A stretch of DNA of 64,000 bases from Planctomycetota bacterium (GTDB taxonomy: Bacteria; Planctomycetota; Phycisphaerae; Tepidisphaerales; Tepidisphaeraceae): NCBI GenBank assembly GCA_039182125.1, contig JBCDCH010000005.1:1-64000 (forward strand), written 5' to 3'. The notes below the pieces were generated by a model that was not told where the DNA came from, did no database searches, and saw only the letters and a list, made by a program, of their open reading frames with translations. Made by a program: the position numbers and the translations under genes. This document shows, piece after piece, positions 13,776 through 43,224 of this stretch (its first letter is position 1; the number at the start of each line of letters is the position of its first letter).

Positions 13776-14552
13776 TCACACGAGCAGCGTTCGCAGCGCC
13801 TCGGCGACCGCGTCGGGTTGTTCCAGGGGTGCCATATGGCCGGCGTCGGGGATGACTTTGAGCTTGCCGTGCGGGAGTGCCGCGCTCATGCGCTCGGCCT
13901 CGTCGACGGGCGTAATGCGGTCGTGTTCACCGACGATCACGACGGCCGGAAGGTCCAGCGTCGGTAGCAGGTCGGTTCGGTCCTCGCGCAGCTTCATGGC
14001 CCGCAACGCGCGTTCGATCGTGTGCGGCGGGCAGTGGTTCATGATGTTGCGCAAATCGTGGACCGCCGGCGTGTTGTCGTGCGGGTGGGCGAGCATGTCG
14101 TCGAACATCGCGTTGGTGATCGCCTCGGTGCCTTCGCGTTGAACGAGCTGGATCATGCGGTCGCGTCCGACGCGTTTCTCGTGATCATCGGCGGCCGCGC
14201 GGGTGTCGACCAGCGCGAGCCCCGCCAGCGAGTCGCCGAACGCCGCGGCATACGCCAACGCGACATAGCCGCCCATGCTCAGGCCCGCGAGCACCACGGG
14301 CAACGCCGACAGTTCAGAAAGGACTTCATGCAACGCCCCGGCGAGCGAGTCGATCTGGCAGGGCTTGGCCGGCTTTGCCTCGCCGAACCCCGGCAGATCG
14401 ACGTTGATCACCCGTGCTTCGTCGCCGAGCCGTTCCGCGACCGGTGCCCATACCCGGCGATCCAGCGGGAAGCCGTGAACCAAACACACCGCCTTGCCTT
14501 TCCCGTTGTCATCGAAAGCGACCGTTCCCAGCGAGGTTTGGAGCGTCGGCAT
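13776..14552 (-). CDS. alpha/beta hydrolase (3-oxoadipate enol-lactonase-like)
   Basis: 258 residues. The oxyanion strand is VCLVHGFPLDRRVW, the nucleophile elbow LAGLSMGGYVAL, the acid VGEHDRITPV and the catalytic His DAGHMAPLEQP. The length and motif spacing match the single-domain lactonase/esterase group. There is no protocatechuate pathway gene nearby, so the substrate is open. The stop sits next to or overlaps the possible start of the Old Yellow Enzyme gene, indicating an operon. Confidence 0.82.
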   Translation of the reverse strand: MPTLQTSLGTVAFDDNGKGKAVCLVHGFPLDRRVWAPVAERLGDEARVINVDLPGFGEAKPAKPCQIDSLAGALHEVLSELSALPVVLAGLSMGGYVALAYAAAFGDSLAGLALVDTRAAADDHEKRVGRDRMIQLVQREGTEAITNAMFDDMLAHPHDNTPAVHDLRNIMNHCPPHTIERALRAMKLREDRTDLLPTLDLPAVVIVGEHDRITPVDEAERMSAALPHGKLKVIPDAGHMAPLEQPDAVAEALRTLLV

Positions 14553-14639
14553 CGCGCGATGATAACAGAAAGACGAAGTGCCCGTGAGTCGGGGCGAGGT
14601 GAAACAACGCGCTACCATCGCCCCCGCAAGGGGACTGCC

Positions 14640-15917
14640 ATGGCCGTTCAGGACGAACTTACCAACCTCCGTGCCGAGCTGACGGCCGTGACGAATGTGA
14701 GTCGCATGCTCGCCGAGAGCCGCGACCTGCCGATGCTGCTTGAGCGCACGGTCAAGCTCATCACCGACGTGATGGGCGTGAAGGCCGCGTCGATCCGATT
14801 GTTGGATACGACCCAGGATGAACTGACAATCGCCGCCAAACACGGCCTCTCGGACGCGTACCTCGGCAAAGGCAAGATCAGCTTCACCGCGGCGAAAATC
14901 GATCAGGCGGCCCTCTCGCCGCGCGGCTGGGAACTTGTCGAACAAGTCACCGACGACCCGCGGGTGCTGTTTCGTGAGCAGGCGATCCGCGAAGGGATCG
15001 TGAGCATCCTCGTGGCGGGGATGCGATATCTCGGTAAGCCGATCGGCGTGCTGCGTGTGTACACGGACAAGCCACGCCGTTTCTCCGAGCGGGAGATCGA
15101 CCTGCTGCGCACCGTCGCGTCGATGGCGGCGGCGGCGATCGAGAACGTACGCCTCGCCGACGAAGCCCGACAGGTCGAGCGCGATGCCGAACGGCTCGAG
15201 CGTCAGGTCCAACTCGCCGCGAACGTCCAGCAGCGCATGCTGCCCAAGGGGCCGCCCGAAATCGAGGGCATGTCGTTGGCCGGCATCTACCAGCCGGCGC
15301 AGGAACTCGCCGGCGACCTGTACGACTACATCCCGCTGCCCGAGGAAAACCACGGCCTGCTCGTGGCCGACGTGAGCGGCAAGGGCGTGGCGGCCGCGTT
15401 GGTCGGCATGGCCGTGCGTGCATCGTTGCGGGCGCAGGTCGATTACAAGTATGACCTTTCCGAGTCGATCGCCGGGCTCAACCACATGCTCTACCGGGAC
15501 ACGCGGCCCGGCGAGTTCGTCACGCTGTTCTACGCCGTCCTCGACGCCCAGGCGCGGCGGCTGACGTACTGCGCTGCCGGTCACCCGCCCGCGCTGCTGT
15601 GGCGTAACGGCAAGCTACGGGAACTCACCACCGATGACATGTTGCTCGGCATCGACCTCGACGCGACGTTCGGGCAGGGCGTGTTCAAGCTCAGGTCCGG
15701 CGATCGGATGCTGATCTACACGGACGGCTTTCCCGACGCGGAGGATTTTCGTGGCGAGCACTTCGGCGAGGAGCGTGTGGCGGAAGCGTTCACGGAGGCG
15801 GCCAAGTTGGAGAGTGCGGGGGCGATGGCCGAGCACATGCGACGGATGTTACGGAACTTCGTCGGTCTTGCCGACCGCAACGACGACGTCACGTTCATCA
15901 CGCTGCACGTCGAGTGA
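14640..15917 (+). CDS. GAF-domain SpoIIE/PP2C-type serine phosphatase
   Basis: 425 residues. A GAF domain (about 25-175) with AASIRLLDTTQDELTIAAKHG is followed by a coiled linker (ERDAERLERQVQLAANVQQRML). The SpoIIE phosphatase domain then covers 210-425. Metal-binding stretches are ELAGDLYDY, VADVSGKGVAAAL, YTDGFPDAED and NDDVTFITLHV. Such RsbU-like enzymes dephosphorylate anti-sigma antagonists in partner-switching pathways. No antagonist or anti-sigma kinase is adjacent. AAGGGGA lies a few bases before the ATG. Confidence 0.9.
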   Translation: MAVQDELTNLRAELTAVTNVSRMLAESRDLPMLLERTVKLITDVMGVKAASIRLLDTTQDELTIAAKHGLSDAYLGKGKISFTAAKIDQAALSPRGWELVEQVTDDPRVLFREQAIREGIVSILVAGMRYLGKPIGVLRVYTDKPRRFSEREIDLLRTVASMAAAAIENVRLADEARQVERDAERLERQVQLAANVQQRMLPKGPPEIEGMSLAGIYQPAQELAGDLYDYIPLPEENHGLLVADVSGKGVAAALVGMAVRASLRAQVDYKYDLSESIAGLNHMLYRDTRPGEFVTLFYAVLDAQARRLTYCAAGHPPALLWRNGKLRELTTDDMLLGIDLDATFGQGVFKLRSGDRMLIYTDGFPDAEDFRGEHFGEERVAEAFTEAAKLESAGAMAEHMRRMLRNFVGLADRNDDVTFITLHVE

Positions 15918-15922
15918 CGCAA

Positions 15923-17440
15923 TCAGAACGGCAGGAGCTTCCGCAAACGCAGCCGCCAGCGGAGGCGGCGCAGGGCGAGATTGCCGGGTTCGAGCAGCAG
16001 GCCGTGCCGCAGGGCAACGCGGGCGTTGCCGATCTCTCCGTGGCGGGCGAGCGCGAGTGCGAGGTTGTGCCAGGCGGCCACGCGTTTCGGATCGATCTCC
16101 AGCGCCCGTCGCAGCGCGTTGAGCCCTTCCGCGACACGATCGGCACGGCATTCGGCAACCCCCAGGCGGTGCCAGACTGCCGCGTCGTTGGGGCGAACCA
16201 GGAGCAGCTTGCGCAGCGCCGCGGCACAGCCGGCGTCGTCGCCGATTGCGTCGGCCTCGCGGGCCACGGACTCGAGCACGTCCACGTCTCGCGGCCGGCG
16301 AAGCAGTTCCGCGCGGAGGTGTCGTTGTGCAAGACCGACGTCACCGCGACGTGCCGCGATTGTGGCAAGCTGCAAGTGAACACGGGGGAACGTCGGGTCG
16401 CCGGCCGCCGCGTTGCTCAGCGCGTCCCAGGCCGCTTCGATGTCGCCTTCCGCCGTGTGCAGCCGACCCAGGAGCGAGAGCGTGGCCGGCTCCTGTGGGG
16501 CGATGTCGGACAGTGCTGTCAGTACCGGACGCGCCGCGCGGGGGTCGTCGGCATCGAGAAGCATCCGTGCCAGGTGTGCCAGCAGGTCCGGCCGAGTTGG
16601 ATCCTGCGGCGTGGTTCGGCCGATGCCTTCACGCAACGATCGCAACGCCAGCGCGGTTTGCCCATCGGCTTCGAGGCAGAGGGCGAGCCGGGCGATGACC
16701 GCACCGCGGGGAACCATCGGTTCGCTCGTGTCGATCGCCAGGCAACGCCGGTAACACCAGATCGCGCGGCGGTGCAGCCCGCGCATTTCCAGCGACCGGC
16801 CCATGTTGAAAAAGCTGCGCGGACAACGCTCGTCAAGCTGCTGCGCCATGTAGAACATGGCTTCGGCCCGGTCATGCTCACCGAGCTCGGCGTGGCACAC
16901 GATGCGGTTGACGATGCCGGGCATGAACTTCGGATCGAGCGTGCATGCGGCGGCGAACTGCTCGATCGCTTCCCGGTCATTGCCGCGTTCGTGAAGGGCG
17001 GCACCGAGGTGATTCAGGGTGTGTGGTTCGTCCGGGTCGAGCTCGACGGCGCGGCGGTAGGCAGCGAGCGCGGCGACCGGGTCGCCGACCGCGTCGAGCG
17101 CGAGGCCCAGTTCGATGTGCGCCGGCGCGTCCCACGGGCCGTCGGCTTCGAGGTTGTCCCGGAGCAGGTCGACCGCGTCGGCGGCATTGCCGGCCTCACG
17201 CAACTCACGGGCCTCGACGACAAAACCCGGCTCGGCGTCGCCGGTGAAGTTCGCCCAGCCTTGGGGCGCGTGTTGCGGAGGATCGAAGATGCCGCCGAGG
17301 TCGTCGTCGAACGGATCGTTGCCGCCGTTCCAGTCGCCCTCGGAATCAAACGGCAGGTCGTCCGTGAAGTCCGGCTCGGAGGAATGGCCTTCAAAGCCGG
17401 GCTCATCGGGGAAGCCGAAGTCGTCGGAATCGCCGGTCAT
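15923..17440 (-). CDS. tetratricopeptide-repeat protein
   Basis: 505 residues. An acidic, Phe/Asp-rich N-terminus (1-70) precedes a run of about ten TPR units from residue 80 to the end (for example AAYRRAVELDPDEPHTLNHLG and ALRRALEIDPKRVAAWHNLA). There is no signal peptide or membrane segment. The C-terminus is Arg/Leu-rich (LRRLRWRLRLRKLLPF). The start at 17440 has GGAG upstream. It is convergent with the phosphatase gene, 5 bases apart, and divergent from the HEAT-repeat gene. It is likely a scaffold; partners are unknown. Confidence 0.75.
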   Translation of the reverse strand: MTGDSDDFGFPDEPGFEGHSSEPDFTDDLPFDSEGDWNGGNDPFDDDLGGIFDPPQHAPQGWANFTGDAEPGFVVEARELREAGNAADAVDLLRDNLEADGPWDAPAHIELGLALDAVGDPVAALAAYRRAVELDPDEPHTLNHLGAALHERGNDREAIEQFAAACTLDPKFMPGIVNRIVCHAELGEHDRAEAMFYMAQQLDERCPRSFFNMGRSLEMRGLHRRAIWCYRRCLAIDTSEPMVPRGAVIARLALCLEADGQTALALRSLREGIGRTTPQDPTRPDLLAHLARMLLDADDPRAARPVLTALSDIAPQEPATLSLLGRLHTAEGDIEAAWDALSNAAAGDPTFPRVHLQLATIAARRGDVGLAQRHLRAELLRRPRDVDVLESVAREADAIGDDAGCAAALRKLLLVRPNDAAVWHRLGVAECRADRVAEGLNALRRALEIDPKRVAAWHNLALALARHGEIGNARVALRHGLLLEPGNLALRRLRWRLRLRKLLPF

Positions 17441-17674
17441 GACGCATCTCCGTTCTACGCGTTGGGGGCAAAACACACAAGTTCGCGCCGGCCCGAACCG
17501 TGCGAAATGTCGGGGAAACTTCGCAAACCCTTAACCGATTCGCGCCGACCAACGTCCGGCGATATAAAGTGTCGACACGACAGGGGCTTGTCCGATCTTC
17601 GGGAAGTGCGGGACCGTCACATCGGGGCCGCTCGTGGTTGGGAAGCCGCCCTTGAAAGTTGTCGGTCGCCGCTC

Positions 17675-19885
17675 ATGTTCCTTTCACCCCGGCCATCCTC
17701 CGAACCTGACCCCGCCGTACGGGGATTACGCCCACGGCGGTTGGCGATGGCGGCGATGGCGGCGGTGGCGGCGGTGGTTCTGGCGATGGGCACGCCGAGC
17801 TTTGCGGCCGGTGACGTGGGTCGTTTGGCCGATCAACTTCGCTCTGCCCGGACGCAACTCGAACGCGACACTGCGGCCAACCGCCTCGCCAGTCGCCCCC
17901 AGGCCGAGGCGGCCGACGTGCTCCGTGCAACGCTTCGCGATCCGACCGACACGGGCGGTCGGCTCGCCGTGGCCCGCGCACTGGCCCGCCACGCCCGGCC
18001 CGACGACACGGAGTGGATCGACCCCTTGTTCGCGGCCCTGACCAACGGCGGCGACGAAACGCTGGCGATGGCCGTCGCCGACGCATTGGGCCCGTACGCG
18101 ACCCGGCCACCGGTCACGGCACGCTTGGCACAGATCGCGCAGGCCGACGGCAAGGTATCGGTCCGGTTGGCGGCGCTGCGTGCGCTGGGTTCCGCGCCGA
18201 CCGAGGCGGCCGCCCGTGCCGCTGCGACATTGCTCGACGCGGATGAGCCGCGGATCGCCAATGCGGCCGGAGTGGCCATCGCTCGCATCGCGGCCCTCGA
18301 CGATGCCGATCCGGCATTGGTCAGTGCATGGATGGCCGACCGGCTCGAGGCGGGCGATTTCGCGGAGGTGGTGCTGGTCAATCGCGCCCGCCGTTCGGAT
18401 CGCAACGTGGCCGATCTTGCCGAGGCCCGTGCGACCTTGCGGCGGTCGCTGACCGAGGTCTACCGCAACGCCGACGACAAGCCGGTCGTGCTCGAACAGT
18501 TCCTCACCAGCCCCGACGGCAATGTCCGCCTGCTGGGCGCGGAATTGGTTTACAGGGCGGTGACCGAGACTGGCATGGTGGCCGCGTCGGTCAAGCCGTT
18601 CGTGATCGACCTGGTCGGCGACGATCGTCCTGCGGTACGGCGTGAGGCGGCGGCGGCGTTGGGCGTGCTCAACGAGCCGGCCGCGACCGAGGCGCTGCTC
18701 GTTCAGATCGAGCAGGAGCCGGACGCGTCGGTGCGGGCGGCGTTGGCCACGGCGCTGGGCCCGTTGCGGGATTTGCGTGCGGTGGAGCCGCTGATGGCGT
18801 TGTTGCGGGATCCGTCGCCGACGGTGATCTCGGCGGCCTGCCGGTCGTTGCGCCAACTCGGCCCGGTGCTGCGCCGTGACGACCCGAACCTTGCCCGCAT
18901 GGTCGCTGCCGAAACCGAAGACTTGTTGCTCAATCGCACCCAGCGTGGTGACGGTCCGATCCGGGAACACGCGGTCGGGGCGTTCGCCGCGCTGAGCGGG
19001 CCGGACGGGACGGCGACATTGACCCGCCTGCTGCTCGCCCGGCCACGAGAGATCGACGGCGTTCTCGTCGCCGCGCTCAACGGACTGGCAACACACGGCG
19101 ACGAGCGGGCCGGCGATGCGGTGGCGGAACTGGCGGGCCACGAGAACGCGCGGGTCCGGCAGGCCGCGGTGCAGGCGGTGGTCAAGACGAGCATTTCCTT
19201 CGAGCGGGCCGACCTGCTCCGGCAACGACTCAGCGAAACCAACGAGCCGGCGGCGGTCGTGCGCGAGGAAGCGTGGAAGTCGTTGCTCGCGTTGATGCCG
19301 ATGGCACCGGAGGTGCAACTCGCGGCTTGGCCCGAGCGGTTCCGTGACGAGCCGACGCGCCAATTGGCGGTGTTCGAGGTGCTGGCCGAGATGGCTGCGG
19401 CGCGCGGCGATGTCGAGGCCCAGAGCTATCGCCTGCAACAGATCGGCAATCTGCAGGCGTCGATCGGACGCTGGGGCGAGGCGGCCGGTTCGCTTCGGCA
19501 GTCGCTCGACATCGTCAAGGACCGGCCCGGCACCCAGCCGGTCGTTCTGCTTTCGCTCTCGGGAGAACTGCTCACGGCACTCCTGCGGGATCGCCAATAC
19601 GACGCGGCCCTGGAGTTCGCCGCCGAACTGATCGCGTCCGATCCGCAATATCGCGGCGACGTCGGCGATCGCATTCGCAAGGAAACCGACCGCCTGTTCA
19701 AGGCCAACGAACTCGCCGATGCGCAGCGCCTGGTGAGTGCTGCTTTGTCGATGCAGCCGCCGCTGGACGATGCGTTCGTCGAACGGCTCCGTGAGACGTC
19801 GGACAAGATCCAACTTCGCCGCGATGCAGGTAGCGAAACCGATCGCCTCGGTCCCGACACGCTCACGTCCCTCGACCGGAGCTAA
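17675..19885 (+). CDS. secreted or periplasmic HEAT-repeat protein
   Basis: 736 residues. The N-terminus has an Arg-rich start, a hydrophobic stretch and a signal-peptidase-like site (GTPSFA/AG near residue 45). The body is a series of HEAT-like helical repeats (for example RPAVRREAAAALGVLNEPAA and DASVRAALATALGPLRDLRA). A TPR-like region follows in the last 150 residues (SIGRWGEAAGSLRQSLDIV). This suggests a binding scaffold outside the cytoplasm. It is followed by a GTG-started membrane protein after 2 bases. Confidence 0.75.
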   Translation: MFLSPRPSSEPDPAVRGLRPRRLAMAAMAAVAAVVLAMGTPSFAAGDVGRLADQLRSARTQLERDTAANRLASRPQAEAADVLRATLRDPTDTGGRLAVARALARHARPDDTEWIDPLFAALTNGGDETLAMAVADALGPYATRPPVTARLAQIAQADGKVSVRLAALRALGSAPTEAAARAAATLLDADEPRIANAAGVAIARIAALDDADPALVSAWMADRLEAGDFAEVVLVNRARRSDRNVADLAEARATLRRSLTEVYRNADDKPVVLEQFLTSPDGNVRLLGAELVYRAVTETGMVAASVKPFVIDLVGDDRPAVRREAAAALGVLNEPAATEALLVQIEQEPDASVRAALATALGPLRDLRAVEPLMALLRDPSPTVISAACRSLRQLGPVLRRDDPNLARMVAAETEDLLLNRTQRGDGPIREHAVGAFAALSGPDGTATLTRLLLARPREIDGVLVAALNGLATHGDERAGDAVAELAGHENARVRQAAVQAVVKTSISFERADLLRQRLSETNEPAAVVREEAWKSLLALMPMAPEVQLAAWPERFRDEPTRQLAVFEVLAEMAAARGDVEAQSYRLQQIGNLQASIGRWGEAAGSLRQSLDIVKDRPGTQPVVLLSLSGELLTALLRDRQYDAALEFAAELIASDPQYRGDVGDRIRKETDRLFKANELADAQRLVSAALSMQPPLDDAFVERLRETSDKIQLRRDAGSETDRLGPDTLTSLDRS

Positions 19886-32972: not shown

Positions 32973-33587
32973 TTACCGTCGCCGGCGGATCAGGCCGAGG
33001 CTTCCGACTGCGAGCAGGCCGAGCGTGGCCGGTTCGGGGATGGGCACGATCTGTCCGCGGAGTTCGCCGGTGTTGGGCAGGGGGAACTCGGCGGTGTGAA
33101 TGGCGAGGTAGAGGTTGCCGGACCGCAGGTCGTCGAGTGCGTCGGTGAGGGCGATGGAGTCGCCGGGGTCGCGGACGCCGTCGCCGTTGTCGTTCTCGTC
33201 GCCGTCGTCCCAGAGACCAGTGAGGGAGGTCCCGGTGAAGACGGCGTCGGCGTCGTCGACGCGGGGCAGGCCGAAGATGTTCAGGGCGTGGGGGCCGTTG
33301 GTGCCGGGGGCACCGATGTGGATGTGAATGCCTTGGACGAAGCTGTCGTCGGCGGGGTCGATGGAGATCCCGGTGAAGTCGATGTCGTAGGCGAGTGTCG
33401 GTCCGTCGGGGCCGTCCAGATCGAGGGTGAGCGTCCCGGAGCCGAGCGCGTCGGAGCCGACGGGTGAAGTGGCATCGCCGAAAGGAACCACCTGATCAGG
33501 GGTGAGATTGATCTCGAAAATTTCGACGGCGGATACGGTGGGAGCGGCCAAAAAAGCGGCCGCTGCGGTGGATACAAGGAACTTCAT
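32973..33587 (-). CDS. CHRD-domain PEP-CTERM protein
   Basis: 204 residues. A signal peptide (MKFLVSTAAAAFLAAPTVSA) is followed by a CHRD domain. Its strand pattern includes INLTPDQVVP, TLTLDLDGPDGPTLAYDIDF, GIHIHIGAPGTNGPHALNIF, YLAIHTAEFPLPNTGELRGQ and I. A canonical PEP-CTERM tail, PIPEPATLGLLAVGSLGLI plus RRRR, ends the protein. CHRD domains are beta structures of unclear ligand. It would be exported and processed by an exosortase. Confidence 0.88.
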   Translation of the reverse strand: MKFLVSTAAAAFLAAPTVSAVEIFEINLTPDQVVPFGDATSPVGSDALGSGTLTLDLDGPDGPTLAYDIDFTGISIDPADDSFVQGIHIHIGAPGTNGPHALNIFGLPRVDDADAVFTGTSLTGLWDDGDENDNGDGVRDPGDSIALTDALDDLRSGNLYLAIHTAEFPLPNTGELRGQIVPIPEPATLGLLAVGSLGLIRRRR

Positions 33588-33711
33588 GGCGGCAGCATAC
33601 CCCGTAAAGGCTAGCTGGGAGGTGAAAAATGCGGTTTGTCGGGCCGTTCTAAACAAACCCCGGCATTCCCACGGCGAAACCTTGCGGTGGTCGCTAGCGT
33701 CTTTTCCGAAC

Positions 33712-34476
33712 ATGGTGCAACTCCCGGGCGACAACCGCATGGATGGGGATAACGACGCAGACCGAGAAGCGGATGCGGCAAGGGAGCCGACGGACGCGGG
33801 TCTGCCAGACCAACCGGGTGTTAAGCCCTCGGGGAAGGACAAGCCGATGCAAGCTACGTTGTCCGCAAGCACGCCTGTCACCGAAGCAACGCCGCTGAAG
33901 ATCGCTGGTACGCAGCGCAAGCTGCGGCGGGAGTACGTCGCCTCGTCACCGGAAGAGGTGGACGCGTTGTTTGAAAAGGCCGTCGCCGAGCACGGCCGGC
34001 GGCTGTTGGCGATCGCCCGGTCGATCGTCGGCTTCCGCGCCAGTCCCGAGGACGTGGTCCAGCAGGCAATGTTGAACCTGTACAAGCATCGCCTTCGTTA
34101 CGATTGGGAATCGCCGGGGCCGTTGATGAAGCGGGCGGTGATCAACGAGTCACTGCGGCTGCTGCGTCCGCCGAAGATGTCGATGGTCCAGGATGACCAC
34201 CCGGCCCCGGACAAGCCCAAGGATGCGCCCGATGCGGCGATGATGGAAAACGAAACGGTCGAGCAAGTTCGGGCCGCGATTGATAAACTTCCTGAACACT
34301 TCCGTGCCGCACTCGTTCTTTGTGAATACGAGCAGATGAGTTACGCGGACATCGCCAAGACGCTGGACGCGTCGGTGCCGCAGATCAAGACGTGGCTCCA
34401 CCGGGCGCGTCGCAGGTTGGCAGGGATGCTCGAGCCGTATATGAAAGCCGGTCGCGGTGAACTCGCGTCGGACTGA
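33712..34476 (+). CDS. ECF-type RNA polymerase sigma factor
   Basis: About 254 residues. A disordered N-terminus (1-80) precedes region 2 (LFEKAVAEHGRRLLAIARSI and EDVVQQAMLNLYKHRLRYDW). Region 4 follows (KLPEHFRAALVLCEYEQMSY followed by ADIAKTLDASVPQIKTWLHRARRRL). Planctomycetes have many such factors. The downstream gene is a membrane anti-sigma factor, fitting the usual pair. The start could instead be the ATG at 33847, which would remove the disordered leader. Confidence 0.85.
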   Translation: MVQLPGDNRMDGDNDADREADAAREPTDAGLPDQPGVKPSGKDKPMQATLSASTPVTEATPLKIAGTQRKLRREYVASSPEEVDALFEKAVAEHGRRLLAIARSIVGFRASPEDVVQQAMLNLYKHRLRYDWESPGPLMKRAVINESLRLLRPPKMSMVQDDHPAPDKPKDAPDAAMMENETVEQVRAAIDKLPEHFRAALVLCEYEQMSYADIAKTLDASVPQIKTWLHRARRRLAGMLEPYMKAGRGELASD

Positions 34477-34511
34477 ACTGGTTGAAGAAGTCGTATTATT
34501 CTGGAGCTTGC

Positions 34512-35054
34512 ATGCCCCTATCGGAGAACGAGTTTGATCTCTTGGAACAGTACCTCGACGGCGAGTCCGACGAGGCTCAGGCTGCCCATGTTCGGGCGCT
34601 GATCGCGAGCCGTGACGACGCCGCCGAAGCACTGCGCGCGGCAAAAGCCCGTCGCGGGCTCCGGTCGGAAATCTTTCAACAGCAGGGCGAAGACGACGAA
34701 CAGGCGATCGACCGCATCCTTGCGGCCATCCGTGCTGAGGGGATCCGCGAGAAGTTCGCCCAAGAAGACAAAACCGGCTTCGGCTGGCGGCAATGGACCG
34801 GGCTTGCTGCGGCGTGCCTGGCGCTGGGGCTCTTCGGCGTCTTCATCGGCTATGCGACCGGTCCCGGCGGCAACGCACCCGCCACCATCACCGCACCCAA
34901 CACGTTCAACGTTCAAGTCGTCAACGACGCCGGTCAGGTCACCGAGACGTTCGTCACCGACAACTATCCCGAGGCCCGCAGCCTTGCCGACGAGCATCAC
35001 AACGCTCGCATTCTGACCAATGGCTACGAGGTTCAAAAGAGCGCCGGCCTCTAA
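34512..35054 (+). CDS. membrane anti-sigma factor-like protein
   Basis: 180 residues. The N-terminal helix LSENEFDLLEQYLDGESDEA matches the first helix of anti-sigma domains. A single membrane helix lies at about 94-115, and the rest is outside the cytoplasm. There is no HxxxCxxC zinc motif. Its place right after an ECF sigma gene (35 bases) and before a PDZ protein supports the role of holding the sigma factor at the membrane. Confidence 0.7.
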   Translation: MPLSENEFDLLEQYLDGESDEAQAAHVRALIASRDDAAEALRAAKARRGLRSEIFQQQGEDDEQAIDRILAAIRAEGIREKFAQEDKTGFGWRQWTGLAAACLALGLFGVFIGYATGPGGNAPATITAPNTFNVQVVNDAGQVTETFVTDNYPEARSLADEHHNARILTNGYEVQKSAGL

Positions 35055-35063
35055 CGCACCCCC

Positions 35064-36002
35064 ATGGCATCCCTGATTCACGTTCGCCGGTTGCGTGCGC
35101 TGTTGGCGTTGCTGACGCTCACATTCACGTCGGCTGCGTTTGCGGCGATTTCGCCGTTGTCCGAACTGTCACGCGAGGTCGAAGCCCTTGTTGCCGACGC
35201 GCTACCGATGCGGGCGACGGTCGCCGTGGACGGAAGCTGGCTCGATGCGGTGCTCATCGACGATCACGGCCATCTGCTGGTGCCGCACGTTCTCGAGAAG
35301 CGTTCCTACAACGTCACGTTCGGCGGTGAGCAGTTGTCGGCGTCGTATGTGAAAGCCGATGAGCTGAGCGCGATGACGATCCTGAAACTCGCGGCCGTAC
35401 CCGCGGAGGCCGAGGTGGTGCGCGTGGCCCGCCTGCGGCCCAGACCGGCCGAGTTGTCGGTGATTCTTTCGCCCGGCGGTGGGGCGGGTCGATTGGTGGT
35501 GTGGGACGGTGCGCCGCGTGAGAAGGCGCTGGCGGAAGGTCTGGTGATTGTCGCAGACGAAGAAGCGGAGGTAACGACCGCGCGTATTGCCGGCTTCTTG
35601 TGCGACAACGAGTTCCGGCCGCTGGACCTGGCGCAAGTCGTGGGTCTTCAACTCGCGGCCGGCCGGCCGGTGGAGCGTGTGCGGCTCGGCGTGCTCGTCG
35701 GTGTTGTGACCCGAGAATCGGCCCGAGACACCGATGGATTGGCCGAACGCAACACTCTCAAACCACGAACGGAGTTGGTCGTGCTCCGCGTCCTGCCCGA
35801 CAGTCCCGCCGAGCGGGCCGGAGTGAAGCAGGGCGACAACGTGCTGGCGTTCAACGACCGGCCTGTCACGAACCTGGCCGAGTTTGCCGCAATCCTCGCC
35901 GACACCAAGGAGACCGCGATGCTCTCGATCCTGCGCGACGGTGTGCCCATGGACCTGAAGATTGATCTCCGCCCAAGCTCGGGTGAGAAGCCGGACGCTT
36001 GA
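35064..36002 (+). CDS. PDZ-domain protein with a degenerate HtrA-like protease domain
   Basis: 312 residues. The signal peptide has LLALLTLTFTSAAFAA. Residues 45-200 follow the trypsin-like HtrA pattern (VLIDDHGHLLVPHVLEK, with the His at 75). The Asp position reads ELSAMTILKL instead of the expected Asp, and no GNSGGP serine loop is visible. A PDZ domain follows (about 215-305, with VLPDSPAERAGVKQGDNVLA). It is likely a binding protein that reads exposed tails, perhaps regulating the anti-sigma factor encoded 9 bases upstream (inference). Confidence 0.72.
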   Translation: MASLIHVRRLRALLALLTLTFTSAAFAAISPLSELSREVEALVADALPMRATVAVDGSWLDAVLIDDHGHLLVPHVLEKRSYNVTFGGEQLSASYVKADELSAMTILKLAAVPAEAEVVRVARLRPRPAELSVILSPGGGAGRLVVWDGAPREKALAEGLVIVADEEAEVTTARIAGFLCDNEFRPLDLAQVVGLQLAAGRPVERVRLGVLVGVVTRESARDTDGLAERNTLKPRTELVVLRVLPDSPAERAGVKQGDNVLAFNDRPVTNLAEFAAILADTKETAMLSILRDGVPMDLKIDLRPSSGEKPDA

Positions 36003-36129: not shown

Positions 36130-37038
36130 ATGACCGTCGCCTCGATTAATGAGCGTGCCGCCGAGGAGTATTTCCGACGCGGCCTTGAAGCCGAAGAAGC
36201 CGGTGACTTCGACAAAGCCGTCGAAACTTACCGCCGTGCCCTGAACGAAGACCCCGACCACGAAGCGACCAGCTTCCGGTTGGCCGTACTGCTCGATCGC
36301 GAAGGCGAAGACGAGGAGGCCATCGAGCTTTACGAGTCGCTGACCGCCGGCGGCGAGGTCAAAGTCGCGGCCCTGATGAACCTCGCGGTGCTCTACGAGG
36401 ATCACGATCGTTACGAGGAAGCTGCCCGCTGCCTGCGTGCCGTGCTCGAGTCCAACCCGCACCACGCCCGGGCCAAGCTCTACCTCAAGGACGTCGAAAG
36501 CGCCCTGAGCACGACGGTCCAGCAGGAGCAGCGCAAGCTCACGACCCGCGATGCCGTGCTCGATGTGCCGATCAACGACTTCGAGCTCAGCGTCCGCAGC
36601 CGCAACGCGCTCAAGAAGATGAACGTCCATACGCTCGGCGACCTTCTCAAGGTCAGCGAACAGGAGCTGATGTCGTTCAAGAACTTCGGCGAGACGAGCC
36701 TCTCGGAAATCAAGTCGCTGCTCGCCGGGCGTGGTTTGCGACTCGGCCAAGCGCTCGAAGAGGGGCCGGTCGTGCCCAGTCCGGTACCCGCTGCCGATCG
36801 CCATGCGCCCGCCGACGACATCCCCGAGGAACTGTCCGACCGGCCGATCGCCGACATGGAACTCTCGGTCCGCAGCCGAAAGGCGCTGCAGCGGCTCAAC
36901 ATCCAGACCATCGGCGAACTGTGCAGCCGCACCGAGGAAGAACTGCTCGGGTGCAAGAACTTCGGCCAAACCTCGCTCTCGGAGATCAAGCGCATCCTCG
37001 CGAGTCTAAGCCTGAGTCTGCGTCGACTGGACGACTAA
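36130..37038 (+). CDS. TPR protein with two RNA polymerase alpha C-terminal domains
   Basis: 302 residues. Three TPR units (about 10-120) are followed by a linker and two clear copies of the alpha-CTD: 146-206 (ELSVRSRNALKKMNVHTLGD and FKNFGETSLSEIKSLLAGRG) and 238-298 (ELSVRSRKALQRLNIQTIGE and CKNFGQTSLSEIKRILASLS). These modules in RpoA bind DNA UP elements and activators. The RpoA N-terminal domain is absent. A transcription-linked adaptor is likely (inference). The start could be the ATG at 36082; no clear ribosome site decides it. Confidence 0.85.
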   Translation: MTVASINERAAEEYFRRGLEAEEAGDFDKAVETYRRALNEDPDHEATSFRLAVLLDREGEDEEAIELYESLTAGGEVKVAALMNLAVLYEDHDRYEEAARCLRAVLESNPHHARAKLYLKDVESALSTTVQQEQRKLTTRDAVLDVPINDFELSVRSRNALKKMNVHTLGDLLKVSEQELMSFKNFGETSLSEIKSLLAGRGLRLGQALEEGPVVPSPVPAADRHAPADDIPEELSDRPIADMELSVRSRKALQRLNIQTIGELCSRTEEELLGCKNFGQTSLSEIKRILASLSLSLRRLDD

Positions 37039-37187: not shown

Positions 37188-38423
37188 TTGACGAAACCGT
37201 TCACGACCCGCGTTCTCACAGGCTTTGTCGCCATCGTGATCTTTGCCATCACCGGTTGTGCCAGCGACCCCGAGCCCAGCGGCGACATTCCCGGTCCGCC
37301 GACGATCCGCGTGTTGCTCGAACGGGATGCCGATGCCGCGACGGTGTCCGCGACCGGCACCGTCACCGCCGCGACATCGGGCCAAACCGCGCCGCTGCTC
37401 ATCCGTGGGAGCCAGACCGTGCGCCAGGCGGATAACGGCTGGTACATCGGTGGCCAGTATTTCCCCGGTGCCGCGCGTCTTCGGCTCACGCCCGGCACCG
37501 ACGCCCTGATCACCGTCAACGGCGAGCAAAGGCCCGGCGGCTTCGACTTCGTCACCAAGTCCGCCGGCGTGTTCGATCTGGTCAACGTCGTCGATATGGA
37601 GCAGTACCTCATCGGCGTCGTCGCCGGCGAGATGTTCAGTAGCTGGCAACTCGACGCGCTCAAGGCTCAAGCGGTGGCCGCGCGGACCTATGCGTTGTTC
37701 CAGACGAAGACGCTCGATCGTGGTCATTGGGACGTCTTCGGCGACACGCGCGATCAGGCGTATGTGCCGATCGACAAGTGGACCGACAACGACCGCCGTG
37801 CTGTCGCCGAGACGGCGGGCGTCGTGCTGGCGTTTGCACCCGATGGCAAGCCGCGCCGGATTTTCAAGGCGTATTACTCCTCGACCTCCGGCGGACCGTC
37901 GATCGGGGCCGTCGATGCGTTCGGCGATTCGCCCGTCAACCGGATCGACCCGATCAACACCCCCGTCCAATACGGAGACCTCGACAATCAAAGTTCGCGC
38001 TACCGCTGGACGATCGAGACGACCCGGCGCGAGTTTGACGCGGCCGTCAAGCGGTGGGCCGCCGATCGTAATCATCCCGCCGCCGGGCTTGGTCCGATCG
38101 TCAATGTTCAGGTCGACGCGCGCAACGACTTGCGTCGGCCGACTCGCTATGTCCTGATCGATCGATCGGGCAACACCGCAACGGTGGGGGCCGAGCCCAT
38201 GCGGAACCTGCTTGGACGGGTTGGCAAATCGTGGGGCAACTGGGTCGAGCCGACGGTCAGCGGCGAGCGGATCGTGTTCGCGGGCCGAGGCTTCGGTCAT
38301 GGCGTGGGCATGAGCCAGTACGCCGTCGAAGCCCTTGCCCAGCGTGGCGAAACGTGGGACCAGATTCTCAAGTTCTGTTATCCGAAGGTCGAATTGGTGC
38401 GTGCGTATCGCGGCAAACCCTAG
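37188..38423 (+). CDS. SpoIID/LytB-domain lipoprotein
   Basis: 411 residues starting at TTG with ACGGAG upstream. The lipobox is IFAITGC at residue 24, so the protein is probably a lipoprotein. The SpoIID domain is evident in VDMEQYLIGVVAGEMFSSWQ and LKAQAVAARTYALFQ, in YYSSTSGGPS and in GFGHGVGMSQYAVEALAQRG. SpoIID proteins cleave stem-peptide-free glycan strands of peptidoglycan. It fits the neighbouring cell wall cluster. Its stop and that of ddl lie in a TAGGAC/GTCCTA palindrome. Confidence 0.88.
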   Translation: MTKPFTTRVLTGFVAIVIFAITGCASDPEPSGDIPGPPTIRVLLERDADAATVSATGTVTAATSGQTAPLLIRGSQTVRQADNGWYIGGQYFPGAARLRLTPGTDALITVNGEQRPGGFDFVTKSAGVFDLVNVVDMEQYLIGVVAGEMFSSWQLDALKAQAVAARTYALFQTKTLDRGHWDVFGDTRDQAYVPIDKWTDNDRRAVAETAGVVLAFAPDGKPRRIFKAYYSSTSGGPSIGAVDAFGDSPVNRIDPINTPVQYGDLDNQSSRYRWTIETTRREFDAAVKRWAADRNHPAAGLGPIVNVQVDARNDLRRPTRYVLIDRSGNTATVGAEPMRNLLGRVGKSWGNWVEPTVSGERIVFAGRGFGHGVGMSQYAVEALAQRGETWDQILKFCYPKVELVRAYRGKP

Positions 38424-38437
38424 GACACGCGCACGTC

Positions 38438-39283
38438 CTACGAGACTGCCATCCGCACGAGTCGATCGACCAACTCCGGAAACTCGATCCCCGCGTATCT
38501 TGCCGCGTCCGGTAGCAAGCTCCGCGGCGTGAACCCTGGCATCGTGTTGATCTCCAAGAGGTACGGCTCGCCCGATTCGTCGAGCATCAGGTCCACCCGG
38601 CTCAGGTGACGCGCGCCGATCAACCGATGTGCCTCTAGCGACATCGCCATCACACGCTCGACAAGCTCCGCCGGGGCGTTGAGCTCGAAGCAATGCGGCG
38701 CGCCGTCCTCGGCGTACTTGCTCTCGTAGTCGAACCAGCTGTCACCCGTGTCGATGCGGATGGGCGGCAGCGGTTGGTCGTCGAGGATGCCGACGGTCCA
38801 CTCCGGGCCGACGATCAGTTGTTCGCAGATGGCCGTCGGGTCGGCCGCAAGGGCGGTATCGCGTTGCTCGACGCTCTGGCACATCGTGATGCCGAGGCTG
38901 CTGCCGCCGGCGTTGGGCTTCACCACGCACGGCGGCGGCACGTTCTGCCCGTCGGCGGGAACGGGCAGGCCGTGAGCGCGCCAGACGGCCTTCGTCCGGG
39001 CTTTGTCAAAGCCGAGCGCCGACGCGACCGACCCGCTGCCGACGAACGCGATGCCACGCCGTTCGAACTCCGCCTGTAGCACGCCGTCCTCGCCGAACGC
39101 CCCGTGCAACGCGGGGAACACCACGTCGAACAGGTCGTCGAGGACATCGAAGTTCCGCGGCGCGACGTCGCCGAGCGTCACGTCATGCCCGGCCGCGCGG
39201 AGTCCCTCGGCGATCGCCCGACCGCTCACGAGCGACACCTCGCGTTCGTTGGACGGACCGCCGGCTAGGACGAGGACGTGCAT
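38438..39283 (-). CDS. ddl: D-alanine--D-alanine ligase
   Basis: 281 residues of the ATP-grasp fold. Signatures are VLAGGPSNEREVSLVSG (glycine loop), ALHGAFGEDGVLQ, VVKPNAGGSSLGITM, LSRVDLMLDESGEPYLLEIN and TMPGFTPRSLLP. It makes D-Ala-D-Ala for peptidoglycan precursors. The ATG at 39283 has AAAGGA with a six-base spacer, while the ATG at 39289 would touch that site; I therefore chose 39283. It ends the mur run on this strand. Confidence 0.95.
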   Translation of the reverse strand: MHVLVLAGGPSNEREVSLVSGRAIAEGLRAAGHDVTLGDVAPRNFDVLDDLFDVVFPALHGAFGEDGVLQAEFERRGIAFVGSGSVASALGFDKARTKAVWRAHGLPVPADGQNVPPPCVVKPNAGGSSLGITMCQSVEQRDTALAADPTAICEQLIVGPEWTVGILDDQPLPPIRIDTGDSWFDYESKYAEDGAPHCFELNAPAELVERVMAMSLEAHRLIGARHLSRVDLMLDESGEPYLLEINTMPGFTPRSLLPDAARYAGIEFPELVDRLVRMAVS

Positions 39284-39367
39284 GATCATTCCTTTGAGCG
39301 GCGACCAGCGGGAGCTTTGCGTGGCGCCACGGGAAGCTCCCTTCGGTCGCCGCTCAACATGGCCGAC

Positions 39368-40276
39368 TTACGTCGGCCAGAACTTCACTTCCGTCTGCAA
39401 CTCGACGCCAAACTTCTCGGCCACCTTCTCGCGGACGACCGCGACCAGGTCGGTGACGTCCTTCGCGGTGCAGGGGGCGTGGGCGAGGATGAAGTTGGCG
39501 TGCTTGCTGGAAACCTCGGCGTTGCCGACGCGCATGCCCTTGAGCCCGGCCTCGTCGATGAGCTTGCCGGCCGAGGTCGTGCGGCCGTCGGGCAGCGGGC
39601 CGGGGTTGGTGAACATGCAACCGCTGCTCTTGGCATTCAGCGGCTGCGTGCTGCGCTTGTACATCCAGACTTCCTTGGTCACGTCCGTCACCGCGACCGG
39701 GTCGTCCTTCTCCAGTTCCAGTTCGGCACCGAGGATGAAGGGTGCGACGATGTTCGTGCTGCGGTAGCCGAAGTGCAGGTCGTCGGCGGTGCGCTCGAAG
39801 ACCTCGCCGGCCGCGGACATGACGGTGACCTTGGCGATGTTGTTGCCGATGTCGCCGAAGCGTCCGCCGGCGTTCATGCGGATGCCGCCGCCTACGGTGC
39901 CGTAGATCCCGGCCATGCACTCCACGCCCGCCAAGCCCTCGCGGCAGCAGCGGAGCACCATCTTCTGCATGTCGTAGCCGGCCCCGAGTTTGAGCGTCGA
40001 GCCGTCGATTTTGACGGTCTTGAACGCCGGATCGTCGAGCCGAAACACCGCGCCCGGCACGCCGTCGTCGCTGACCAGCAGGTTCGCCCCCAGGCCCAAC
40101 ACGTAGATCGGAATGTTCTCCTCGCTGCAACGCCGGGCCGCTTCACGGAGCTCGTCAACGCTCCGCGGCTGCACGAGGTACTGCGCCGGCCCGCCGATCC
40201 GATACCACGTCAACGGCGCCAGCGGCGCGTCGGGCGTGACGTAATCGAGATCGGAAAACGGAGTGGCGAGACGCAT
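39368..40276 (-). CDS. murB: UDP-N-acetylenolpyruvoylglucosamine reductase
   Basis: 302 residues. The FAD-binding domain shows TWYRIGGPAQYLVQPRSVDE, VLGLGANLLVSDDG, GIYGTVGGGIRMNAGG and YRSTNIV. The catalytic region is NAKSSGCMFTNP, with Cys in the proton-donor position where many relatives have Ser. It reduces UDP-GlcNAc-enolpyruvate to UDP-MurNAc. The order murC-murB-ddl matches the classic division and cell wall cluster. Confidence 0.95.
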   Translation of the reverse strand: MRLATPFSDLDYVTPDAPLAPLTWYRIGGPAQYLVQPRSVDELREAARRCSEENIPIYVLGLGANLLVSDDGVPGAVFRLDDPAFKTVKIDGSTLKLGAGYDMQKMVLRCCREGLAGVECMAGIYGTVGGGIRMNAGGRFGDIGNNIAKVTVMSAAGEVFERTADDLHFGYRSTNIVAPFILGAELELEKDDPVAVTDVTKEVWMYKRSTQPLNAKSSGCMFTNPGPLPDGRTTSAGKLIDEAGLKGMRVGNAEVSSKHANFILAHAPCTAKDVTDLVAVVREKVAEKFGVELQTEVKFWPT

Positions 40277-40301
40277 GGGGGAAGGGATGGTAGCGAGGTG
40301 G

Positions 40302-40393
40302 AATGACGAATGACGAGTTCCCGAATGACGAAGGAAACCCGAAGGTCGAAGTCCGAAACCTCGTCATTCGGATTTCGCCATTTATTCGTCATT
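40302..40393. repeat. repeats of AATGACGAA type between murC and murB
   Basis: AATGACGAATGACGAG on the left and CTCGTCATTCG plus TTCGTCATT on the right form an imperfect inverted repeat. The exact pair is CGAATGACGAG (40307-40317) with 40360-40370. The last codons of murC (Asn-Asp-Glu-stop) lie inside a repeat unit. Confidence 0.6.
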
Positions 40394-41821
40394 GACCAGA
40401 GTTTCCCCGACCACATGCACATCCCCCGCGCCCATGGTGACGCACAGGTCGCCGGGCTGGAGCGTTTCGCGGAGGTAGGCGTCGCAGTCGTCGAAGCCGC
40501 CGATGTGACGGGCGGGCTGGCCGGTCTTGCGGATCTCCTCGGCGAGCAGGGCGCTGCCGACGAACTTGTCCTCCGGGTCGTCGCGGACGCTGTACACGTC
40601 GGGCAGCACGACCTCGTCGGAGTCGCCGAAGCAACGGGCGAAGTCGGCCAGCAGTTGGCGGGTCCGGCTGTGCTGGTGCGGCTGGAAGACGCAGATCAGT
40701 CGGCGTGGACGGTAGCGTTGGCGCAGGGCATCGAGCGTGACGGCGATCTCGGTGGGGTGGTGGCCGTAGTCGTCGACGACGTCGGCTTCATTGAAACGCC
40801 CGAGGTGCGTCATGCGTCGGTCGGCCCCGCGGAAGGTGCCCACGTGCTCGGCGGCGACCCGTGGCTCCATCCCGCAAGCCACCGCCGCCGAGATCGCCAT
40901 CACCGCGTTGTACAGGTTGTGCTTGCCCGGCACCGAGAGCCGCAGGCCGCAGGCGATCTCGCCGCCTTGGAGAATGTCCGCCTTCCAACAGCCGGCGTCG
41001 ACGGTCGCGTTGACCCACGACCAGTCGGCGTCGTCCGCTTCACCGACCCATGTCACCGTCCGACCGCCAAGCGCGTCGCGGCTGTGGGCATCGTCGGCGT
41101 TGGCGATGACGTGTCCGCCGTCGTCCGGTGTCAGGTCGGCGAACGCGCGGAACGCGGTCTTGATGTTGTCGAGGTTCCCGTAGCAGTCGAGGTGGTCGGC
41201 TTCGACGTTGGTGATGACCGCGACGGCCGGCCGCAGGTGCAGGAACGATCGGTCGTACTCACACGCCTCGGCGACGAAGTGGGCGCCATGCCCGGACCGC
41301 GAGCCGCCGCCGAGTTGCGGCACCGTCGCACCGACGACGAACGACGGATCGACCCCGCCGGCGAGCAGGGCGTGGGCGAGCATGCCGGTGGTGGTGGTCT
41401 TGCCGTGGGTCCCCGCGACGCCGACGCCGAACCGCTCGGCCATGACTTCGCCGAGCAACTCGGCGTACTTCGTGTGCGGCTTGTCGAGACGCTCCGCCGT
41501 GGCGATCTCGGCGTTGTCATCCTTCACCGCGGCGGTGCGGACGACCAGGTCTGTCTGCCCGTTGATGAGTGTGCCGTCTTGGTCACGGCTGACAGTCGCC
41601 CCGGCAGCGGCGAGGGCGAAGGTGCGCGGGTTGAGCGACGGATCGGTGCCGGAGACGATCGCGCCACAGTCGAGCAGGATCTGGGCCAGCCCGGCCATGC
41701 CGCAGCCGCCGATGCCGGCGAAGTGAACGCGCTTGCCCGTGAACTTGCTACGCGGCGCCGGGGCGTCGATGGACCGATAAACAACGGGCTGGCGGGTCGT
41801 GGTGGCAGGCAACGCGGGCAT
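40382..41821 (-). CDS. murC: UDP-N-acetylmuramate--L-alanine ligase
   Basis: 479 residues, the family length. The UDP-binding Rossmann part is HFAGIGGCGMAGLAQILLDC, the ATP P-loop GTHGKTTTTGMLAHAL, and the central-domain carboxylate region VITNVEADHLDCYG. The C-terminal domain shows DDYGHHPTEIAVTLDALRQR. It adds L-Ala to UDP-MurNAc. Its 3' end runs into a repeat of AATGACGAA type. An MFS transporter and other non-mur genes separate it from murG. Confidence 0.95.
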   Translation of the reverse strand: MPALPATTTRQPVVYRSIDAPAPRSKFTGKRVHFAGIGGCGMAGLAQILLDCGAIVSGTDPSLNPRTFALAAAGATVSRDQDGTLINGQTDLVVRTAAVKDDNAEIATAERLDKPHTKYAELLGEVMAERFGVGVAGTHGKTTTTGMLAHALLAGGVDPSFVVGATVPQLGGGSRSGHGAHFVAEACEYDRSFLHLRPAVAVITNVEADHLDCYGNLDNIKTAFRAFADLTPDDGGHVIANADDAHSRDALGGRTVTWVGEADDADWSWVNATVDAGCWKADILQGGEIACGLRLSVPGKHNLYNAVMAISAAVACGMEPRVAAEHVGTFRGADRRMTHLGRFNEADVVDDYGHHPTEIAVTLDALRQRYRPRRLICVFQPHQHSRTRQLLADFARCFGDSDEVVLPDVYSVRDDPEDKFVGSALLAEEIRKTGQPARHIGGFDDCDAYLRETLQPGDLCVTMGAGDVHVVGETLVNDE

Positions 41822-41891
41822 GTTAGCAATTCATCGGCATCTCGCAGGTGCGGGCTGTTGGGGAAACAGCCGACGTCGATCGCCGCTTCCC

Positions 41892-41954
41892 GTAGGGCAG
41901 GCACCGCCTGCCACTGCGAGCGGCTTCGCGGTGGCAGGCAGTGCCTGCCCTACG
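41892..41954. repeat. nested-palindrome repeat (GTAGGGCAGGCAC type)
   Basis: Arms 41892-41914 and 41931-41954 pair almost perfectly around a 16-base spacer. Each arm is also its own hairpin (GGCAGGC-ACC-GCCTGCC and GGCAGGC-AGT-GCCTGCC). The TAG stop of the MFS gene at 41950-41952 is supplied by the repeat itself. Confidence 0.75.
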
Positions 41955-43224
41955 CGGAATGTTCATCCGCGAGCCCGCGGAGCTTGCGGATGTCCGGGAA
42001 CAACTCGGCCCAGATCGCGACGACGACGATCGTGCCCACGCCGCCGCTGACGACGCTGATGACGGGGGTGAACAAGGCGGCGACGGCGCCGCTCTCGAAG
42101 CCGCCCAGTTCATTGGACGAGCCGATGAACACCGCGCTGACCGCCGAGACCCGACCGCGCATCGCATCGGGCGTGGCCAATTGGATGAGCGTGTGGCGGA
42201 CCACGACGCTGACGTTGTCGAACACACCGGTGAGGAAGAGCATCGCCAGCGATAGCCAAAAGTTGGTCGAAAGGCCGAAGGCGACCGTGGCCAGTCCGAA
42301 GCCGACGATGCAGACGAGCATCGTCACCCCGGCCCGGCGCATGGGCGGCAGATATGCCAGCGTGAGCGCGGTGCAGAGGGCCCCGGCTGCCGGGGCCGAC
42401 CAGAGCAGGCCGAGCCCGATCTCACCAACACCGAGAATGTCCTCCGCGAAGATGGGCAGCAGATACACCGTCCCGCCAAGCAGCACCGCGAAGAAGTCCA
42501 GCGAGATCGTCCCCAGCAGAATCTTCCGCCGCCAGACGAACGACAATCCCTCCACCAAATCACCAAACACGCCGGCCATCCCCTTGGGCGTCGTGCTGGG
42601 CGGCGGCTTTGTGTCCACGCGCAGACGCAACAGCAGCACGATGAACAGCAGGCTCGACCCGGCCGCGATGAAGTACGTCGCCGGCACGCTCCACGCCAGA
42701 ACGAACCCGCCCAGCGCAGGCCCGAGCAGTGCCGATAGCTGCCCGCTGCTGCTGCGCCACTTCACCGCGTTCTCGAATGTTTCCCTCGGCACGATCATTG
42801 GCAGCAGCGCCGTGCGCGCCGGCCACGCCGTCCGCAGAAATACCGCGTCCATGAACAGGATGAAGTACATCCACCCGATCGGCCCCTCGAAGTACGAGAG
42901 CAGCCCAAGTCCGATCGACGTGAGCGTCGCGCCGCCCAGACCGAAGAGCATGATCAGCCGTCGGTCGATCCGATCCGCCAACACTCCCGCCGGGAGCGTC
43001 AGCAGCAGCATCGGCAGCGCCTGCAACAGTCCGACCCACGCCAGGCTCATGGCACTGCCAGTGCGTTGGTAGAGTTCGAAGCCGATGGCCAGACCCTGAC
43101 CCGCAGTGCCGATGCTCACCAACGTCGTGCCGGCCAGGTAATCGCGATATGCTGGGATGGCGAAGGCGGCGTAGGGCGATGGCTTTGGCGGGGGCTTTGG
43201 CGGGGGCTTGGGCGGAACGCTCAC
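41950..43224 (-). CDS. MFS transporter (EntS/MFS_3-like)
   Basis: About 424 residues with about 12 membrane helices. The loop-2 signature is present as GVLADRIDRRLIMLFGLGG. FSTNFWLSLAMLFLTGVFDN-like text in the second half resembles the EntS exporter group. The N-terminus has a Pro-Lys repeat (PPKPPPKPPPKPSPY) from a short tandem DNA repeat. I set the start at GTG 43224; the ATG at 43263 would overlap the divergent SUI1 gene. The substrate is unknown. It interrupts the cell wall cluster. Confidence 0.85.
   Translation of the reverse strand: MSVPPKPPPKPPPKPSPYAAFAIPAYRDYLAGTTLVSIGTAGQGLAIGFELYQRTGSAMSLAWVGLLQALPMLLLTLPAGVLADRIDRRLIMLFGLGGATLTSIGLGLLSYFEGPIGWMYFILFMDAVFLRTAWPARTALLPMIVPRETFENAVKWRSSSGQLSALLGPALGGFVLAWSVPATYFIAAGSSLLFIVLLLRLRVDTKPPPSTTPKGMAGVFGDLVEGLSFVWRRKILLGTISLDFFAVLLGGTVYLLPIFAEDILGVGEIGLGLLWSAPAAGALCTALTLAYLPPMRRAGVTMLVCIVGFGLATVAFGLSTNFWLSLAMLFLTGVFDNVSVVVRHTLIQLATPDAMRGRVSAVSAVFIGSSNELGGFESGAVAALFTPVISVVSGGVGTIVVVAIWAELFPDIRKLRGLADEHSA

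Follow-up and report, generated by a model that had tools for sequence, protein, structure and literature searches.

The alpha-CTD is known chiefly as a tethered part of RNA polymerase, and the RpoA tail that carries it is attached through a flexible linker. In the stretch of planctomycete DNA analysed here (64,000 nucleotides of contig JBCDCH010000005.1, assembly GCA_039182125.1; the window), two such domains were found in a protein that has tetratricopeptide repeats (TPRs) and no alpha N-terminal domain (alpha-NTD). The question raised by this locus is what alpha-CTDs of that kind are for.

The reading frame translates into MTVASINERAAEEYF...LRRLDD* and closes exactly at position 37038; the features of the gene and its neighbours are listed in Table 1. 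A sequence-only reading had described the product as a TPR scaffold followed by two alpha-CTDs, lacking the alpha-NTD, and this architecture was borne out. PF03118 (RNA_pol_A_CTD) matched the 302-aa protein in two stretches (E 9.8e-44, 147.4 bits against a curated cut-off of 23.8), and TPR_2 matched at 62.9 bits against a cut-off of 27, which identifies it as a TPR protein. No alpha-NTD was found with Pfam, and the NCBIfam rpoA models were matched through their CTD part alone (the last 70-90 positions), far under the cut-offs. The signature blocks ascribed to each copy are also present: ELSVRSR occurs twice, and the second block is found as KNFGETSLSEIK and KNFGQTSLSEIK.

Table 1. Coordinates of the TPR-alphaCTD gene, its parts and its neighbours in the window
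Feature	Position	Strand	Basis
TPR-alphaCTD protein, two alpha-CTDs	36130..37038	+	302 aa and stop; SINERAAEEY block shared at the start of orthologs
Three tetratricopeptide repeats, aa 11-112	36160..36465	+	TPR_2, E 1.2e-17; six helices in the model, aa 6-108
Long helical arm between TPRs and alpha-CTD copy 1, aa 113-144	36466..36561	+	single helix 113-144 in the model, pLDDT 89-98 per ten-residue block
alpha-CTD copy 1, aa 141-206	36550..36747	+	PF03118 at 36550-36726, E 6.7e-22; residue conservation
Linker, partly disordered, aa 207-233	36748..36828	+	pLDDT < 50 at aa 213-224
alpha-CTD copy 2, aa 234-298	36829..37023	+	PF03118 at 36829-37002, E 4.7e-21; K at the N268 equivalent
ECF sigma	33502-34476		Sigma70_r4_2, E 3.1e-15
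Putative anti-sigma	34482-35054		single sub-threshold match, NF052375, E 7e-4, 19.6 bits (cut-off 100)
PDZ protein	35064-36002		PDZ_6, E 2.2e-10
SpoIID/LytB-domain protein, conserved downstream neighbour	37188..38423	+	PF08486, E 2.2e-23; TIGR02669, E 1.6e-48

Structure prediction with AlphaFold2 on a 101-sequence alignment gave a mean pLDDT of 92.7 and a pTM of 0.60, so that the relative placement of the domains is less certain than the single domains. The predicted order is three TPRs, a helix (residues 113-144) that runs into the first alpha-CTD, a disordered linker (213-224) and the second alpha-CTD. TPR folds or TPR-like designs were found among the 50 matches listed in a PDB structure search (best match 1na0, E 3.1e-6), a result uninformative as to function. 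Alignment A2 comprised 100 of the 129 listed references. R114, A115 and D121 are conserved in the arm, which has an M-x-x-D-E motif in most relatives, and residues 207-236 are the least conserved part of the protein (mean majority share 25.5%).

An ordinary rpoA gene is located 63 kb away on the same contig (C5:100159; 378-aa ORF, NF003513, 402 bits). With this gene in place, no alpha-NTD in the 302-aa protein and the rpoA models under their cut-offs, a duplicated or partial rpoA was ruled out. The protein shares with RpoA the alpha-CTD domain (PF03118), with the groove-reading residues kept, and its copies are on average about 47-48% identical to the rpoA tail of their own genome. RpoA has an alpha-NTD, whereas here TPRs and the helical arm stand in its place; lacking the alpha-NTD, the protein would not assemble into the core polymerase by the known route. 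Unlike the RpoA tail, copy 1 is carried in the model on a helical arm.

In the phylum Planctomycetota the TPR-alphaCTD gene belongs to the core genome and is present in single copy. A phylogenetic profile, proposed as a check by the sequence-only reading, was obtained with a whole-protein profile at E<=1e-30: the genomes sampled were all Planctomycetota, 390 of 393 gave a match (373 of 376 among the best genomes), and the match was single in 386. Four genomes gave two matches, three of these being pieces at contig ends; in G311 the gene is split into two halves at contig ends, and G293 and G389 have extra pieces at contig ends. Two full-length genes were found in G363 (G363:C4:8050-8931 and G363:C62:104728-105606), the sole clear case in the 393. 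The three genomes with no match at this threshold (G448, G031 and G242) are draft assemblies (70, 260 and 190 contigs, respectively) in which an rpoA-like CTD alone was found, and either gene loss or an assembly gap fits. PF03118 was found in 147 of 149 Planctomycetota genomes, with exactly three matches in 118 (hand count), as an rpoA gene plus a single two-CTD protein would give. Chance or artefact was ruled out by the Pfam E-value of 9.8e-44 and the occurrence in 390/393 genomes.

Among the best 80 of 522 relatives (594 stretches), the nearest named ones were Phycisphaerae MAGs, and two bore titles without a planctomycete group (one 'bacterium' and one 'Alphaproteobacteria', the latter presumed to be a mislabel). 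No relative was encoded at any of the 76 pattern matches in viral contigs, and no record among 72,556 plasmids and 50,697 phages covered 80% of the protein. The plasmid and phage matches listed (20 of 66 plasmid records) fell within rpoA where annotated and were otherwise unannotated partial CTD matches. A mobile or phage-borne gene was ruled out on these grounds.

The history of the two copies was traced in a tree of 23 genomes, in which copies 1, copies 2 and rpoA tails formed three separate clades (support 0.993, 0.893 and 0.903, respectively) and the E. coli alpha-CTD grouped with the rpoA clade. Three clean clades imply that both copies arose once, before the radiation of the phylum. The three domains of one genome (copy 1, copy 2 and the rpoA tail) lie at much the same distance from one another (mean identities 46-48%). 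The paired comparison was reduced from 24 genomes to 23 by leaving out G049, whose second copy scored under 25 bits. Mean pairwise identity across the 23 genomes was highest in copy 1 (67.0%), followed by the rpoA tail (57.1%), the N-terminal part of rpoA (55.6%), copy 2 (48.4%) and the TPRs (39.9%); the rpoA tails (n=27) were taken from the best-scoring places, a bias that should make rpoA seem more conserved, not less. Copy 1 exceeded the rpoA tail in identity in 238 of the 253 genome pairs, and the rpoA N-terminal part in 245 of the 253, the pairs sharing genomes and thus not being independent. In a larger alignment the mean majority-residue share was 81% for copy 1, 68% for copy 2 and 53% for the TPRs.

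The match ended ahead of copy 2 in 6 of 29 genomes around G088, belonging to two families. A single alpha-CTD was matched in G088 (locus L229), G218, G238, G254, G296 and G376, with G088 alone read at the sequence level: in this single-contig genome the protein stops shortly after copy 1. In G049 the NFG block is gone from copy 2. The pattern suggests two separate losses of copy 2, and the TPRs and copy 1 are the portion retained throughout.

Residues were counted, with E. coli numbering, in the 136 unique sequences obtained from 164 two-CTD ORFs; about 80 of the loci behind these sequences are from Phycisphaerae, and ORFs with a second copy under 25 bits (such as that of G049) were left out, so that figures for copy 2 refer to intact copies only. 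R265, N294, G296, S299 and E302 were each found in 136/136 copies 1 and N268 in 135/136; all six DNA-contact residues (S/T at 299, E/D at 302) were present together in 135/136, and the retention in orthologs that the sequence-only reading had proposed to check was thereby confirmed for this copy. The same groove-reading residues are stricter in copy 1 than in rpoA. Acidic residues at both 259 and 261, which we take to be the sigma-contacting '261 determinant' of the alpha-CTD, occur in all 136 copies 1, in 70/136 copies 2 and in 21/27 rpoA sequences; their conservation could serve folding rather than sigma contact.

In the E. coli rrnB P1 complex, as described in the available part of the source, R265 and N294 insert their side chains into the minor groove, and the backbone is contacted by K291 and K298 (PMC7822876). 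Copy 1 lacks these backbone contacts of a UP-element type alpha-CTD: position 298 is K in 0/136 copies and T in 132, and position 291 is mainly S, A or G, with K291 in 59% of the rpoA sequences of the phylum. T298 is a trait of the phylum, since its own rpoA has T298 in 25/27. Position 297 is acidic in 136/136 copies 1 and in 0/27 rpoA sequences, 23 of which are basic there. With an acidic residue by the DNA-contacting edge and the backbone lysines 291 and 298 mostly gone, the DNA affinity of copy 1 may be low or altered. Its other hallmarks against rpoA are F260, R267 and M273 (99% each), of which R267 and M273 are, like E/D at 297, typical of copy 1 and atypical of rpoA; the mean net charge of helix 1 is +3.8 in copy 1 versus 0.0 in rpoA, and the copy 1 of the window has A, not C, at 269. 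Judged by its residues, copy 1 appears to have preserved the DNA-reading and sigma-facing surfaces, with the backbone contacts rearranged.

The earlier description of both domains as near-textbook alpha-CTDs thus suits copy 1 but not copy 2, which is missing or degenerate in some lineages. Copy 2 has R265 in 136/136 and N294 in 135/136, but N268 is absent in 135/136, with K or R there in 134, and all six DNA-contact residues were found together in 0/136.

The sequence-only reading had also placed the gene in a run with an ECF sigma factor, an anti-sigma factor and a PDZ protein. The three ORFs are there (the anti-sigma one by a sub-threshold match), but the upstream ORFs of the window, these included, gave matches in 0 of 100 other loci (E<1e-12); the run does not stand as meaningful context, and a regulator of an ECF-sigma operon was ruled out. 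The downstream side is conserved. Of 101 loci, ORF clustering found a SpoIID-domain gene in 76, without exception on the strand of the TPR-alphaCTD gene; tgt (42 loci), yajC (32) and secD (29) nearly always share that strand too. Each figure is the number of loci represented in a cluster of matching ORFs; scans covered two SpoIID ORFs and one each of tgt and yajC, and secD was named from sequence appearance alone. By hand count, a member of the SpoIID-tgt-yajC-secD cluster was downstream in 15 of 20 loci of different families, and a ruvA-like gene was next on the same strand in 7 of 20 such loci (three scanned, all RuvA); in the class of the window, SpoIID mostly takes this place instead of ruvA. 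In locus L192 the order is TPR-alphaCTD, ruvA, ruvB, queH, spoIID, tgt, yajC and then a secD-family ORF. The TPR-alphaCTD gene seems to be the head of an ancestral ruvAB-queH-spoIID-tgt-yajC-secD cluster, the functions of which are too mixed to fix a role; the cluster could be the target of the protein or merely its place.

Two other arrangements in the window were recorded. Adjacent same-strand ORFs at 39278-40306 and 40310-43072 (342 and 920 aa) gave no Pfam or NCBIfam match at E 0.01, and a GAF-SpoIIE phosphatase-like gene (14022-15917) is followed, with a four-base overlap, by the gene for a 1323-aa HEAT-repeat protein (15914-19885).

The protein was also compared with other systems that have alpha-CTDs beyond the usual RpoA. 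In PglW of type 2 BREX, an alpha-CTD-type domain outside RpoA is described as a nucleic-acid-binding module (PMC12839542). The best match of the NCBIfam PglW model to the 302-aa protein ran through aa 124-206, the copy 1 region. PglW, however, is a defence-system protein with a kinase and winged-helix modules, whereas the TPR-alphaCTD gene is part of the phylum's core genome, in single copy, and its product has no kinase; PglW/BREX membership was ruled out by the absence of a Pfam kinase match. Francisella, with two different rpoA genes, likewise has a second source of alpha-CTD in the cell, but there the second protein is, in the published description at hand, a full alpha subunit incorporated into the polymerase, unlike the TPR-alphaCTD protein (PMC3294249).

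To judge from their sequences, ORFs of 700-821 aa at L218 (G019:C19), L219 (G058:C215) and L221 (G389:C855) belong to another type of alpha-CTD protein that some planctomycetes have. They have three, two and one alpha-CTD stretches, respectively, and sigma-70 region 4, and a HARE-HTH match was found in those of L218 and L219, not L221. Their alpha-CTDs lie outside RpoA, as in the TPR-alphaCTD protein; unlike it, they contain sigma region 4, no TPR was found in them and their occurrence is sporadic. A separate 965-aa frame (L220:1041-3935; G063:C145) joins PurS, an alpha-CTD (PF03118, E 1.1e-10) and PurL-type AIRS domains, an odd purine-enzyme fusion.

The most plausible reason for the strict retention of the groove-reading residues and of the adjacent acidic pair is that the domain still binds DNA upstream of promoters, beside sigma region 4. 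We favour, with a probability of roughly 0.55, the reading that the protein is a phylum-wide, vertically inherited core factor acting on transcription, a DNA-binding adaptor that would dock an alpha-CTD beside sigma region 4. DNA binding, sigma contact, partner binding and an effect on transcription are all properties that we infer for it. Copy 1, on its stiff helical arm, would read the A/T-rich minor groove upstream of promoters, like the alpha-CTD of RpoA, and could be placed next to sigma region 4. Through its TPR face the protein would hold a partner, which may be the polymerase, an activator or some other complex associated with DNA; with the spacing set by the arm, an alpha-CTD untethered from the polymerase core would thus be supplied. 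Copy 2, on a flexible linker, would be a second, altered contact, dispensable in some lineages. It is conceivable that the protein adds an alpha-CTD at promoters, that it competes with or takes the place of those of RpoA, as the sequence-only reading had proposed, or that it brings a partner to the polymerase. Against a role in transcription counts the fact that the conserved gene neighbours are no transcription genes. A bolder version, which we consider doubtful, is that initiation in Planctomycetota has a two-part apparatus, in which an obligatory non-core factor, recruited by its TPRs and docked on sigma region 4, would add a promoter-bound alpha-CTD in trans, with upstream-promoter recognition split between RpoA and a detached alpha-tail protein.

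Three other roles were weighed. Copy 1 could mimic the RpoA tail for sigma region 4, NusA or activators with no DNA binding, the protein acting as an adaptor or decoy that sequesters or bridges them. TPRs usually bind proteins, and the invariant acidic pair (136/136), the lost backbone lysines and the acidic residue at 297 would suit such a role; a pure decoy would not need groove-reading residues stricter than those of rpoA, and we regard this explanation as unlikely. Still less likely is an accessory of recombination or repair, in which the alpha-CTDs would be helix-hairpin-helix-like DNA grips only, working with RuvAB at branched or A/T-rich DNA. It draws on the ruvA-like gene that comes next in 7/20 loci and on ruvA-ruvB following in L192, but the same cluster includes tRNA-modification, cell-wall and secretion genes, SpoIID rather than ruvA is mostly next in the class of the window, and the acidic pair at 259/261 has no obvious part in repair.

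A general nucleoid or chromosome architectural protein, holding A/T-rich DNA by one or two alpha-CTDs, would agree with tandem minor-groove modules, a basic helix 1 and a single-copy core gene. The loss of copy 2 in 6/29 genomes, however, implies that bridging of two DNA sites by one chain is not required, and such a function gives no reason for the 259/261 pair; we hold it to be the most improbable of the three.

A literature search, with subscription papers and preprints outside its scope, found no paper on the TPR-alphaCTD protein or its phylum-wide distribution. Such proteins are presumably already domain-annotated in public databases. What stands out is the phylum-wide occurrence and the extreme constraint on copy 1; the component domains, and alpha-CTD modules outside RpoA, were known. 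A transposon essentiality map exists for Planctopirus limnophila, and the protein is not named in the available part of its text (PMC10632474).

In this protein an alpha-CTD has come free of the polymerase; a whole phylum keeps it as a one-copy gene, under tighter constraint than the tail of the polymerase itself. From the constraint on copy 1 and the universality of the gene, a core and perhaps essential function in gene expression is predicted, in bacteria of unusual and poorly understood biology, and the strict conservation of copy 1 points to a core gene-expression factor that is new to study.
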